From Bacteroidales bacterium (lineage in GTDB: Bacteria; Bacteroidota; Bacteroidia; Bacteroidales; Marinilabiliaceae), in NCBI GenBank assembly GCA_024401355.1, contig JAKSLF010000013.1:17198-81197 (forward strand): a stretch of 64,000 nucleotides of DNA. The letters run 5' to 3'. Below, one piece after another: positions 57,446-61,467 of the stretch. The notes under the pieces were generated by a model. That model did not search any database. It was not told the origin of the DNA and saw nothing but the letters and a program-made list of their open reading frames with translations. The position numbers were made by a program, and so were the translations under genes. The stretch's first letter is position 1; each line of letters opens with the position of its first letter.

Positions 57446-57507
57446 GTTGGAGAAAAAAATAAAAGTTTTCATATTTGCATCCGATAATAATATAAAAGAC
57501 TAAGAAC

Positions 57508-57567
57508 ATGATTCAGATGAACAGCAACTGGTGGTGGTGGCGACTTACTTCAAACAAACCGGAGTGA
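57508..57567 (+). CDS. trpL: trp operon leader peptide with four tandem Trp codons
   Basis: A 19-residue leader peptide: MIQMNSNWWWWRLTSNKPE. The four consecutive TGG codons (57529-57540) are the sensing element: when charged tRNA-Trp is scarce the ribosome stalls there. The stop codon (57565-57567) overlaps the 5' arm of the antiterminator, so a ribosome that finishes the peptide covers that arm. It starts 98 bp upstream of the first TrpE codon. The reading frame and the codon run are seen directly; the regulatory role follows from the established trp attenuation mechanism. Confidence 0.93.
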   Translation: MIQMNSNWWWWRLTSNKPE

Positions 57568-57628
57568 GCATCTACCTCATTTGTTAATCGAATCAGTCGA
57601 TAATACAAAAGGCCTGCCGAACTCCGGT
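57558..57628 (+). promoter_or_regulatory. trp antiterminator pairing
   Basis: ACCGGAGT (57558-57565, within the end of the leader reading frame) is perfectly complementary to ACTCCGGT (57621-57628). The second segment overlaps the loop and the 3' arm of the terminator, so the two structures are mutually exclusive. Stalling at the Trp codons leaves 57558-57565 free and allows antitermination. Confidence 0.85.
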
Positions 57629-57643
57629 GGGCCTTAATTTTTT
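57609..57643 (+). terminator. trp attenuator (intrinsic terminator)
   Basis: AAGGCCTGCC (57609-57618) pairs with GGTGGGCCTT (57626-57635) over 10 bp including two G-U wobbles, with a 7-base loop, followed by AATTTTTT (57636-57643). It ends 21 bp before the trpE ATG. Confidence 0.92.
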
Positions 57644-57664
57644 GATGTGATAACATAATAGACA

Positions 57665-59071
57665 ATGAAAAAATATAACTACACAACTGTGTCGAAAAAT
57701 TTGCTGGCCGATATGCATACGCCAGTGAGCATCTATATGAAGATGCGCGACCTCTACACACAGAGCGCCCTGATGGAGAGTTCCGACTATCATGGAGGCG
57801 AAAATGCTAAGTCGTTTATCTGCTTCGAGCCTATTGCCTCGGTCGGTATCAACCACGGCGTAGCTACTTGCACCTATCCCGACGGCAGCGTGACAAAGAA
57901 GCCTATAACGAAGGACTACCAGAGCGACTCGGCTATCAACGAGTTTATCAATTCATTCGAGATCTCTGGCGAGAAGGGTTTGCATCAGGGACTCTTCGGA
58001 TATACGGCTTTCAATGCTGTCAGATATTTCGAGAATATTAATGTCAAGGACGAGATGCAGGAGAAGAACGATGCACCCGACATGCTCTACGTGCTCTTCA
58101 AGAGCATGGTTGTAATCAACCATTTCACCAACACCATGTCGATTGTCTCTCTCGTTAGAGAAGGAGAGACTGCCGACCTCTCTCGCATCGAGAAGCAACT
58201 CAACCGCAACGATATCAAGCAGTATGAGTTCCACCCTGTTGGCGAGACTACAAGCACGCTGACCGACGAAGAACATAAGGCCAATATTCGCAAGGGTATT
58301 GCTCATTGCCTCCGTGGCGATGTTTTCCAGATTGTTCTCGCCCGACGTTTCAAGCAGAAGTATGAGGGTGACGATTTCAAGCTCTACCGAGCTCTTCGAA
58401 GCATCAACCCTTCGCCATATCTCTTCTATTTCGATTTCGGCGGTTTCCGCATCTTCGGCTCGTCGCCAGAGACTCATTGCCGCATTACTGCCGACCGCAC
58501 GGCTTATATCGACCCTATCGCCGGCACGACTAAGCGTACTGGCGACCCGGAGCGCGACGCACAAAATGCTCTCTACCTCCGCAACGACCCTAAGGAAAAT
58601 GCCGAGCATGTGATGCTTGTCGACTTGGCCCGCAACGACCTGAGCCGCAACTGCCACAATGTGAAGGTCGATTTCTATAAGGATATGCAGTACTACAGCC
58701 ATGTGATTCACCTCGTTAGCCGCGTGAGCGGTAAGCTCGATGATAATGCCGATCCTGTCAAGTCTTTTATCGACACTTTCCCTGCCGGCACTCTCTCTGG
58801 CGCTCCTAAGGTTAGGGCTATGCAGCTCATCAGCGAAATCGAACCTCATAGCCGTGGCGCCTATGGCGGATGCATCGGTTGCATCGGTTTCGACGGCTCG
58901 CTCAACCAGGCTATCACTATCCGCACTTTCGTCAGCCGCAACAACGAACTGTGGTTCCAGGCCGGCGGTGGCATCGTGGCCAAGAGCAACGAGGAGTACG
59001 AACTCCAAGAGGTCAACAATAAGCTCGGCGCTTTGCGAAAGGCTATTTTTATGGCCGAGGAGATGAGATAA
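57665..59071 (+). CDS. trpE: anthranilate synthase component I
   Basis: Converts chorismate with ammonia or glutamine nitrogen to anthranilate. The feedback site near the N-terminus has ALMESSDYHGGENAKSFICF (LMES in place of the usual LLES tryptophan-binding motif). The catalytic chorismate domain is about 195-460: GDVFQIVLARRFKQ, PSPYLFYFDF, GTTKRTGDPERD, DLARNDLSRNC, GTLSGAPKVRAM. The 468 residues match the family. It is first after the attenuator and 28 bp before trpG. Confidence 0.97.
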   Translation: MKKYNYTTVSKNLLADMHTPVSIYMKMRDLYTQSALMESSDYHGGENAKSFICFEPIASVGINHGVATCTYPDGSVTKKPITKDYQSDSAINEFINSFEISGEKGLHQGLFGYTAFNAVRYFENINVKDEMQEKNDAPDMLYVLFKSMVVINHFTNTMSIVSLVREGETADLSRIEKQLNRNDIKQYEFHPVGETTSTLTDEEHKANIRKGIAHCLRGDVFQIVLARRFKQKYEGDDFKLYRALRSINPSPYLFYFDFGGFRIFGSSPETHCRITADRTAYIDPIAGTTKRTGDPERDAQNALYLRNDPKENAEHVMLVDLARNDLSRNCHNVKVDFYKDMQYYSHVIHLVSRVSGKLDDNADPVKSFIDTFPAGTLSGAPKVRAMQLISEIEPHSRGAYGGCIGCIGFDGSLNQAITIRTFVSRNNELWFQAGGGIVAKSNEEYELQEVNNKLGALRKAIFMAEEMR

Positions 59072-59099
59072 TTGCCAATTGATTTTTGATGATTGCTTT

Positions 59100-59663
59100 A
59101 TGAAAGTTGTTATAATAGATAATTACGATTCGTTTACATACAACCTCTCGCATCTGCTCAAGGAGCTCGGCGCCGAGGTGACGGTATATAGAAATGACTG
59201 CTTCGAGATGTCACAGCTCGAGGCTTTTGACAAGATTGTCCTTTCGCCTGGTCCTGGCATCCCTTCCGAGGCTGGCCTCCTGCTCAAGGTCATCGAGACT
59301 TATGCTGGCAAGAAGCCTATGCTTGGCGTTTGTCTCGGCCATCAGGCTATCGGTGAGTTCTTTGGTGGCAAGCTGACCAATTTGTCCGATGTGTTCCATG
59401 GCGTGAAGACTCCAGCGACAATTGTGGGCGACGACTACATCTTCGAGGGGCTCCCTAGCGAGATCGAGGTCGGCCGTTACCACTCGTGGGTGGTCGACAC
59501 TAAGGATTTCCCTTCGTGCCTCGAGATTACAGCTACGAGCAACGAGGGTCAGGTGATGGCTCTCCGACATAAGACCTACGATGTCCACGGCATACAGTTC
59601 CATCCCGAGTCTGTACTGACGCCCGATGGCGCCAAGATTGTTGGCAACTGGCTCAAGCATTAA
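59100..59663 (+). CDS. trpG: anthranilate synthase glutamine amidotransferase component
   Basis: Glutaminase subunit supplying ammonia to TrpE; 187 residues. Class I amidotransferase triad: the nucleophilic Cys in GVCLGHQAIGEFFGG (about 79), and His and Glu in IQFHPESVLTPDG (about 168). The oxyanion PGPGIPSEAG is at about 53. The ATG at 59100 gives the family start MKVVIIDNYDSFTYNL; an in-frame ATG 21 bp upstream is less likely. A role in folate synthesis as PabA as well is possible. Confidence 0.96.
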   Translation: MKVVIIDNYDSFTYNLSHLLKELGAEVTVYRNDCFEMSQLEAFDKIVLSPGPGIPSEAGLLLKVIETYAGKKPMLGVCLGHQAIGEFFGGKLTNLSDVFHGVKTPATIVGDDYIFEGLPSEIEVGRYHSWVVDTKDFPSCLEITATSNEGQVMALRHKTYDVHGIQFHPESVLTPDGAKIVGNWLKH

Positions 59664-59696: not shown

Positions 59697-60428
59697 ATGC
59701 CTTGTACCTATTCGTTTTCTGTCGACCGTCTGGGAACTATCGAGGTGCTCGAAAAGCGCAATGCACGTGGCATGTCGATTCGCGTTCACGAAGGTGGCGT
59801 GGTCCGGGTTACGGTACATCCATCGACTACTCAGCTCGAGGTCGGACGCTATGTGGTCGAACAGGCCGAGTGGATTGAGGCTGCTCGTCAGCGGATGGCT
59901 CGCAAGAGCGTCGCCGTGACAATCTTCACTCCCGACTCCACTTTTGCCACACGCGAACACAGACTTGTGATGTCGGCAACTTCCCGCGACAAGTATGCTC
60001 ACGTCAAGGTCAAGCAGGGTCTCATCGAGGTTACTTTCCCGTCCGATGTCGATCCGTCGAAGAGCGAGGTGGTACAGAGTCTGGCACGCAAGGGCATCGC
60101 TTTCGCTTTCAAGGTCGAGGGGCAGAAGGTGCTCCCACAAAGGCTCGACGAACTCGCACGCATCCACGGTTTTACCTATTCTTCTGTCGAACTCAAGGAT
60201 ATGAAGAGCCGATGGGGTAGCTGCTCAAGCAAGAAGGGCATACAGCTCAACGTTCAGCTGATGCGTCTGCCCGACGAACTTATCGACCACGTCCTGCTCC
60301 ACGAGTTGTGCCATACTGTTGAGATGAACCACGGACCTCGTTTCCACAATCTTCTCAACAAGGTCGACGGCGGACGTGCTGCACTCCACGAGAGGCAACT
60401 GAAAACCTATAGGACACAGAGATGGTAG
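59697..60428 (+). CDS. YgjP/SprT-like zinc metallopeptidase (DUF45)
   Basis: A 243-residue cytoplasmic protein of the YgjP/DUF45 family. The zinc motif is HELCHTVEMNHGPRFH (about residues 201-216, HExxH plus a third His), preceded by the family string MKSRWGSCSSKKGIQLN (about 169-185). Biological role and substrate are unknown. It lies between trpG (33 bp) and trpD (37 bp) on the same strand, so it must be transcribed under the trp attenuator unless it has its own promoter; no TAnnTTTG box is visible. It is not a tryptophan enzyme. Confidence 0.88.
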   Translation: MPCTYSFSVDRLGTIEVLEKRNARGMSIRVHEGGVVRVTVHPSTTQLEVGRYVVEQAEWIEAARQRMARKSVAVTIFTPDSTFATREHRLVMSATSRDKYAHVKVKQGLIEVTFPSDVDPSKSEVVQSLARKGIAFAFKVEGQKVLPQRLDELARIHGFTYSSVELKDMKSRWGSCSSKKGIQLNVQLMRLPDELIDHVLLHELCHTVEMNHGPRFHNLLNKVDGGRAALHERQLKTYRTQRW

Positions 60429-60465: not shown

Positions 60466-61467
60466 ATGCAACACATTCTTACTCGCCTTGTGGCTCAGGA
60501 AGAGCTGACGGCGGCAGAGACTGAAAAAATCCTGGTCAATATCACCCAGGAGGCTTATCCAATGGAGCAGATTACTGCTTTCATTATGGGACTTCAGATG
60601 CGTGGCGTCAGCGTCGACGAACTGCTCGGCCTGCGCAGCGGCATCCTCAAGACAGGCGTGCCTGTCGACCTCTCGCCTTATCAGCCTATCGACATCGTCG
60701 GTACTGGCGGCGATGGCAAGAATACTTTCAATATCTCTACTTGCTCATGTTTCGTTGTCGCAGGCGCTGGCTATAAGGTCGCTAAGCATGGCAACTATGC
60801 TGCCACTTCTGTCAGCGGCGCCAGTAATGTCATCGAGGGGCATGGCGTTAAGTTTACCAACGACAACGACAAGTTGCGTCGCAGCATCGAAGAGTCTGGT
60901 ATCGTCTATCTCCACGCTCCTCTCTTCGCTCGTGCAATGAAGTTTGTCGCACCTATTCGCAAGGCACTCAAGATCCCTACTTGCTTCAACCTTCTCGGAC
61001 CAATTGTCAATCCTTGCCGTCCTGCCTATCAGATGCTTGGTGTCGCTAATCTCAACCAGATGCGTCTCTACAGCAATGTCTACCAGAAGATGGGTATCGG
61101 TTATGGTATTGTCAATTCTATCGACGGCTACGACGAAATTTCACTCACTTCCGATTTCAAGGTGACTACCAAGACTCAGGAGAAGATCTATTCGCCTGCC
61201 GACCTCGGTTTCGAACATGCCAATGTGGCCGACCTCAGCGGTATGTCATACCAGACGGTCGACGATGCTAAGAAGGTTTTCGATGATGTCCTCTCTGGCA
61301 ATGGTACCAAGAGCCAGACCGATGTCGTTGTTGCCAATGCAGGCTTCGCTATCAGCATCATGGAGCCTGATAAGAGCATCGACGAATGTATCGCTATCGC
61401 ACGCGAATCACTCGACTCTAAGAAGGCACTCAACACTCTCAAGAAATATGTCGAGCTCAATTCATAG
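60466..61467 (+). CDS. trpD: anthranilate phosphoribosyltransferase
   Basis: Second step of tryptophan synthesis: anthranilate plus PRPP. The PRPP-binding DIVGTGGDGKNTFNIST lies at about residue 77, KHGNYAATS at about 106, and the anthranilate-site segment with KFVAPIRKALKIPTCFNLLG at about 160-182. The 333 residues match the family. It is the last gene of the operon, followed directly by a strong terminator. trpC, trpF, trpB and trpA are not in the window. Confidence 0.96.
   Translation: MQHILTRLVAQEELTAAETEKILVNITQEAYPMEQITAFIMGLQMRGVSVDELLGLRSGILKTGVPVDLSPYQPIDIVGTGGDGKNTFNISTCSCFVVAGAGYKVAKHGNYAATSVSGASNVIEGHGVKFTNDNDKLRRSIEESGIVYLHAPLFARAMKFVAPIRKALKIPTCFNLLGPIVNPCRPAYQMLGVANLNQMRLYSNVYQKMGIGYGIVNSIDGYDEISLTSDFKVTTKTQEKIYSPADLGFEHANVADLSGMSYQTVDDAKKVFDDVLSGNGTKSQTDVVVANAGFAISIMEPDKSIDECIAIARESLDSKKALNTLKKYVELNS

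Follow-up and report, generated by a model that had tools for sequence, protein, structure and literature searches.

Does the gap in front of the trpE gene of this Bacteroidales genome hold a ribosome-mediated attenuator, and if so, which part of the terminator does its antiterminator capture? To answer this question, we analyzed a stretch of 64,000 nucleotides (the window) from a 2.9-Mb genome of 69 contigs that is 85% complete. The genes ruvC and queA are followed here by a gap of 263 nt and then by trpE-trpG-ygjP-like-trpD. The gap holds a leader open reading frame (ORF), a terminator with a T tract, and the short element ACCGGAGT. Judging from sequence comparison and folding models, this is very probably a ribosome-mediated transcription attenuator for trpEG-ygjP-trpD, in which the stalled state would free a decoy of the 5' arm of the terminator, and this decoy would block nucleation of the hairpin.

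The leader region and its conservation before trp operons

The promoter-like box, the leader, the terminator and the genes of the operon are located as follows.

57470..57477, + strand: putative -7 promoter box CATATTTG, one mismatch to TAnnTTTG
57508..57567, + strand: leader peptide ORF MIQMNSNWWWWRLTSNKPE*, ATG at 57508 and TGA at 57565-57567 (sequence and conservation before trpE)
57529..57540, + strand: four consecutive Trp codons, the sensor (sequence)
57609..57635, + strand: intrinsic terminator hairpin of 11 pairs (sequence)
57636..57643, + strand: T tract AATTTTTT (sequence)
57665..59071, + strand: trpE, anthranilate synthase component I (Pfam PF04715 Anth_synt_I_N and PF00425 Chorismate_bind)
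59079..59663, + strand: trpG, glutamine amidotransferase (Pfam PF00117; named by position and family)
59697..60428, + strand: gene for a YgjP-like metallopeptidase, within the operon (Pfam PF01863)
60466..61467, + strand: trpD, anthranilate phosphoribosyltransferase (Pfam PF02885 and PF00591; named by position and family)

The leader ORF has 19 codons, four of which encode Trp, and the coordinates given for it in a preliminary description of this DNA were correct. The terminator consists of the 5' arm AAGGCCTGCCG (57609-57619), the loop AACTC (57620-57624) and the 3' arm CGGTGGGCCTT (57625-57635). The same description had reported a 10-bp terminator with a T tract; hairpin and T tract were found as described, and the stem has 11 pairs when its one G-U pair is counted. 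As had also been proposed there, we folded the RNA of 57484-57664 (181 nt), and found that it is more stable than all of 200 shuffled sequences (z -3.88). The region has a leader ORF with a run of regulatory codons before pathway genes and an intrinsic terminator between the leader and the first gene, two features that define an attenuator.

The trpG and trpD genes are separated by the inserted YgjP-like gene, and the real start of trpG may lie a few codons inside the annotated one. The remaining genes of the trp pathway are located elsewhere in the source genome, with trpB and a trpA-like gene on one contig and trpC and a trpF-like gene on another (the trpA-like and trpF-like genes were assigned by eye). 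The script found no second Trp leader before trpB or trpC at these two loci.

To evaluate conservation, we searched 60 genomes of the family for trpE and found it in 55. Two of them could not be judged, since one locus has 92 nt of upstream sequence and the match in the other genome begins at the first base of its contig. A run of Trp codons followed by a terminator was located before trpE in 53 of the 53 testable genomes, which agrees with the expectation that the Trp run is conserved in relatives. All 53 were found by script, comprising 24 from the first scan, four set aside as duplicates, the loci L010 and L231, and 23 fetched later. The start codon of the leader is visible in 52 of them, and that of L231 lies outside the fetched piece. 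The ribosome-mediated Trp attenuation proposed for the window is well supported by this anatomy; two details of the earlier proposal, on the design of the leader and on the finishing ribosome, did not hold and are discussed below.

We also examined loci from named genomes, taking the best 80 of 579 relatives, of which five have too little upstream sequence and 75 are testable. The script found a Trp run and a terminator at 64 of these 75 loci (62 in the main scan, plus L047 and L075). Eleven of the leaders are located before trpE and 53 before trpB, one of them 4.7 kb upstream (L047). Two further loci (L062 and L079) have the leader, and their hairpin fails the terminator rule that we used. 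The other nine, all led by trpB, revealed no Trp leader in the sequence examined (L045, L052, L055, L060, L072, L082, L091, L099 and L109). At some of these nine, another gene, such as a trpA-like gene, lies directly before trpB, so the operon may start elsewhere. The leader is located before whichever gene leads the operon, trpE or trpB. The Trp runs of the other leaders read WWW, WW, WRW, WHW or WWRW.

Four genomes of the window's own genus (L238-L241), whose trpE is only about 50% identical to that of the window, also have the Trp leader. The genus contains two divergent kinds of trpE, with 49-51% identity (G024, G046, G055, G058) or 70-79% identity (G005, G034, G040, G049, G052) to the trpE of the window, and both kinds keep the leader. 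Among the matches listed, the window-type trpE is 72-75% identical to many records named Prevotella. From these identities, it looks as if one kind of trpE in the genus was gained by transfer.

For the comparative tests, 101 loci with leader and terminator were reduced to 63 by dropping those at least 80% identical. Before these tests, we had removed L003, L004 and L006 as duplicates (their leaders are as in L035, L036 and L057) and L027, whose leader peptide is identical to that of L024. Another 21 loci were dropped, as the script found no leader with terminator there; of these, L010 and L075 do have both, L047 has them 4.7 kb upstream, and L119, one of the first 16 loci of the Rfam family RF01692, is cut by a contig end.

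The motif TAnnTTTG is the -7 consensus of Bacteroidetes promoters. In 34 of the 63 non-redundant loci, it occurs in the 70 nt that precede the leader ATG, compared with a mean of 2.4 and a maximum of 8 in 200 shuffles. The looser form NAnnTTTG, which is the form of the window, is found in 52 of the 63, the shuffle control applying to TAnnTTTG alone. This promoter-like box upstream of the leader bears on another explanation, in which the hairpin merely terminates the upstream gene queA and the Trp-rich ORF arose by chance or encodes a small protein acting in trans. The hairpin starts 208 nt past the last base of queA, and a trans role of a Trp leader peptide has been reported elsewhere (PMC7298713). 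However, leader and terminator occur together before trpE or trpB, whichever leads, and the covariation described below requires both leader and hairpin. We consider this explanation exceedingly improbable.

The antiterminator element and its target

The preliminary description had also proposed an 8-bp alternative pairing between the leader and the terminator. The two sequences are located as follows.

57558..57565, + strand: antiterminator element ACCGGAGT (permutation of element against apex)
57621..57628, + strand: antiterminator target ACTCCGGT, comprising the loop and the top four bases of the 3' arm of the terminator (pairing and covariation)

The element is the exact reverse complement of its target over 8 bp. 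The first Trp codon precedes its start by 29 nt, and its end falls on the first base of the leader stop. When the sequence of the window itself was shuffled by mononucleotides, a match of element and apex as good as this was reached in 25 of 5000 trials for a 32-nt segment and in 51 of 5000 for the 71-nt linker.

To determine whether the pairing is specific to each locus, we paired the leader segment from 18 to 50 nt past the first Trp codon with the apex of the terminator (the last 3 bases of the 5' arm, the loop and the first 6 bases of the 3' arm) and compared it with swapped apexes. Across the 63 loci, the mean energy was -11.93 kcal/mol with the own apex and -8.53 kcal/mol with the apexes of other loci (z -10.8; 0/2000 permutations). 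The match is thus modest by single-locus chance and very strong comparatively, and the proposed pairing is the right one. The signal was found in each group, with z -4.9 for trpE-led loci, -4.8 for trpB-led loci and -3.8 (1/2000) for RF01692 loci. It was replicated in the loci fetched later, both in 14 non-redundant loci of the 23 (z -5.6, 0/2000) and in the nine that also share less than 80% identity with any locus of that first set (z -4.0, 0/2000). Examples of element and target include ACCGGAGT/ACTCCGGT, CGAGAGTT/AACTCTCG, GAGGTT/AACCTC, CGGGAATTG/CAATTCCCG and GTCGTGAG/CTCACGAC. Some loci pair weakly, with only 4 contiguous pairs in L024 and in L034. Pairing and covariation together reveal the third defining feature of an attenuator, an alternative structure that excludes the complete terminator.

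The target comprises the loop and the 3' arm at 44 of the 63 loci, all three parts of the hairpin at 8, and the 5' arm with the loop at 7; the loop alone (3 loci) and the 3' arm alone (1) are rarer. Across the 63 loci, the element gave no locus-specific signal with the remainder of the 5' arm (z +0.4) or with the lower part of the 3' arm (z -0.3), and an antiterminator on the lower 3' arm was rejected.

In a textbook attenuator of the E. coli type, region 2 would pair with the 5' arm of the terminator, and the match with the apex would be incidental. A weak TGGTGG:CTGCCG pairing with the 5' arm is available in the window. The same scripts applied to E. coli trpL recovered this arrangement (-14.0 kcal/mol for the 5' arm together with its 10 preceding bases, -9.9 for the apex), and the Phe and His leaders of the source genome and its relatives, on average, pair in this way as well. 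In the Trp leaders, however, pairing of the element with the whole 5' arm is not locus-specific, whereas that with the apex is very strong (z +1.2 and -10.1 over the 63 loci, in the run made with the His and Phe leaders; +1.4 for the 5' arm in the 14 later loci). Adding the 10 preceding bases did not reveal a 5'-arm signal either (z +2.2 for the 63 loci and +0.9 for the 14). A 5'-arm antiterminator was rejected for the Trp leaders, and the textbook reading of the window is very unlikely.

The amino acid controls come from the source genome and its relatives, where leaders were identified at 12 of 18 hisG loci and at 15 of 19 prephenate dehydratase loci. Like the window, they have an amino-acid-rich leader and a terminator before the first gene; unlike it, their antiterminator pairs on average with the 5' arm and not with the apex. 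The preference is clear for the Phe leaders (5' arm z -5.6, apex -0.4 in 15 loci; -5.0 and -0.3 in 12 non-redundant loci) and weaker for the His leaders (-3.4 and -0.6 in 12 loci; -2.8 and -0.9 in 8 non-redundant loci). The His leaders also carry a signal in the lower 3' arm (z -2.6, with and without near-duplicates), and single loci prefer the apex in both sets (L132 for His, L167 for Phe). Because of this lower-3'-arm signal and the single-locus exceptions, the Phe set is the cleaner control. The source genome itself has a His-rich leader, MNNLHQHHHHHTDD, with a terminator upstream of hisG, on the window's own contig about 15 kb before the window start. It also has a Phe-rich leader, MRNTRFYIGFYFYFFGYRQEMGGCC, with a terminator upstream of the prephenate dehydratase gene on another contig, and this Phe leader pairs most strongly with the 5' arm (-14.9, compared with -11.4 for the apex).

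The 1:2 hairpin and the predicted order of events

The preliminary description had seen no obvious separate 1:2 pause hairpin and a more compact design than that of E. coli. The minimum free energy (MFE) fold contains an 8-bp hairpin formed by the following two strands.

57544..57551, + strand: region 1 CTTACTTC, pairing with region 2 in the protector hairpin (MFE fold and permutations)
57561..57568, + strand: the part of region 2 paired with region 1, GGAGTGAG (MFE fold)

Permutation of region 1 against region 2 across the 63 loci gave z -4.7, or -6.0 when anchored on the element, and the absence of a 1:2 hairpin was rejected on the basis of the fold and these permutations. The RF01692 group alone revealed no 1:2 signal (z -1.0 and -0.6), and the test with fixed windows failed to replicate, with z +1.3 for the 14 later loci and -0.7 for 26 loci of the family. 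Re-anchoring the windows post hoc on the element gave z -2.4 and -3.1, but the controls gave -2.5 and -2.1. Since the control for the later loci is as strong as the re-anchored test (-2.5 and -2.4), the replicate on these loci is weak. The hairpin is present in the window, with comparative support that is moderate and mixed, and with it present the compact design is unsupported.

The preliminary description also had a finishing ribosome cover the antiterminator arm. This idea is unsupported: at 3 of the 63 loci, the leader stop follows the first Trp codon by 57-63 nt and is thus past the element, and there the 1:2 pairing would have to hold the element. The distance from the first Trp codon to the onset of the element is 26-30 nt for 53 of the 63 loci and 21-34 nt for all 63, while the leader stop ranges from +21 to +63. 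This near-constant onset fits a fixed distance from the stalled ribosome and not from the stop.

We then folded growing RNA chains by MFE with masks for the ribosome, whose footprints were assumed. Under the assumed mask of a stalled ribosome, all 63 of the 63 loci had a chain length at which the antiterminator was the MFE structure. This was so for 28 loci with no ribosome and for none with the ribosome at the stop, a position whose mask, as defined, includes the element in most loci. The same folding of the 23 later loci gave 22, 11 and 1, respectively. When the ribosome is placed at the last Trp codon of the window, the predicted antiterminator persists up to the chain length at which 10 of the 11 pairs of the terminator can form. 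In this model the full terminator is the more stable structure even with a stalled ribosome. As the complete terminator finally wins, the antiterminator would have to act kinetically, by timing.

On the basis of the parts found, of their conservation and of the element-apex covariation, we infer the positions of the ribosome, the kinetic order and the regulatory outcome as follows. When Trp-tRNA is ample, the ribosome would pass the Trp codons and reach the leader stop, covering the element, and the terminator would form. At loci with a late stop, the 1:2 hairpin would lock the element instead, with the same result. When Trp-tRNA is scarce, the ribosome would stall on the Trp codons and cover region 1, leaving the element free. 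The free element would bind the loop, the nucleation point of a hairpin, and mimic the top of the 5' arm; as a decoy of that arm, it would capture the loop, together with the initial bases of the 3' arm, during their synthesis. With its apex captured, the hairpin could neither nucleate nor zip, and the polymerase would continue into trpE.

The same contact could be read in the opposite sense, as a pseudoknot of element and loop on the lower terminator stem that promotes termination instead of preventing it. Even with the apex bound, the stem could still form its lower 7 pairs, and pseudoknots lie outside the model, as the folding programs that we used cannot represent them. However, the pairing itself takes up bases of the 3' arm in 53 of the 63 loci. 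Furthermore, the element is located just beyond a Trp-stalled ribosome, and a pseudoknot there would make starvation switch the operon off. We regard this reading as very improbable, and the decoy that prevents termination remains the preferred one.

Extended to the Bacteroidota, with Bacteroidales and other orders of the same class covered, it seems likely that Trp attenuators use a nascent 5'-arm decoy that blocks nucleation kinetically, while the Phe leaders, and probably the His leaders, of the same lineage use an ordinary 5'-arm antiterminator.

Comparison with known attenuators

No Rfam family matched at its gathering threshold. In a permissive search, the best match was RF01692 (Bacteroid-trp), with 29.3 bits (E 0.16) against a cut-off of 49 bits. 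The alignment is full-length, over 57482-57618, and several non-standard pairs are flagged in it. Both elements come from Bacteroidetes and lie upstream of trp genes, and in both, consecutive Trp codons form part of the first strand of a 1:2 hairpin, which in the window is that of the MFE fold described above. By layout the window locus is the same sort of element as RF01692, and by score it is no formal member; all 20 family loci and all 12 other relatives searched also fall below the cut-off.

We searched the phylum with RF01692 and matched 41 of 395 genomes. Among the 30 loci listed, 28 were new, 27 of which come from other orders of the class. These 28 loci have a mean apex pairing of -11.3, compared with -5.5 for the 5' arm; they are nearly invariant and revealed no covariation (z -0.5). 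The RF01692 model ends inside the 5' arm of the terminator, without the loop, the 3' arm or the antiterminator pairing. Ending before the loop, it misses the leaders of the window's family (0/20 loci at the cut-off). The decoy scheme would provide a working model for RF01692, an Rfam family for which our literature search found no worked-out mechanism.

Weinberg et al. 2010 introduced RF01692 and tabled it as a likely cis-regulator (PMC2864571). A 2019 paper likens it to the E. coli leader (PMC6414381), and a 2021 transcriptome paper on flavobacteria describes strong indications that leader peptides attenuate amino-acid operons (PMC9723704). Given these two papers and RF01692 itself, Trp attenuation in Bacteroidota is already a known idea. 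In the open-access literature covered by our search, including passages of PMC2864571, PMC4833913, PMC7366714, PMC9723704, PMC6414381, PMC2965389 and PMC1262725, there was no description of an antiterminator on the loop and 3' arm. The trp attenuators of Actinobacteria, as presented in PMC1262725, likewise have a Trp-codon leader and a terminator before trp operons; they are described there as classical candidates with gGCC-rGCy-GGCC triples.

The trp leader of E. coli (RF00513) follows the same logic, with Trp codons, a terminator and an alternative pairing, and its layout is 1:2, 2:3 and 3:4. RF00513 matches E. coli and not the window. In E. coli, the preferred partner of region 2 is the 5' arm with its preceding bases, whereas the element of the window pairs with the loop and the upper end of the 3' arm, and window-type Trp leaders do not place their antiterminator on the 5' arm as the E. 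coli type does. As attenuation is usually taught, the antiterminator occupies the first terminator strand before the second has been transcribed. The comparative evidence here favors the loop and the opposite strand as the target, in which case the outcome would be decided within a few nucleotides of transcription. An antiterminator that targets the loop would thus provide a clean kinetic test of intrinsic-terminator nucleation. Taken together, the general device is known, and what appears new in this leader-peptide Trp attenuator, to judge from its sequence, is the unusual target of its antiterminator.
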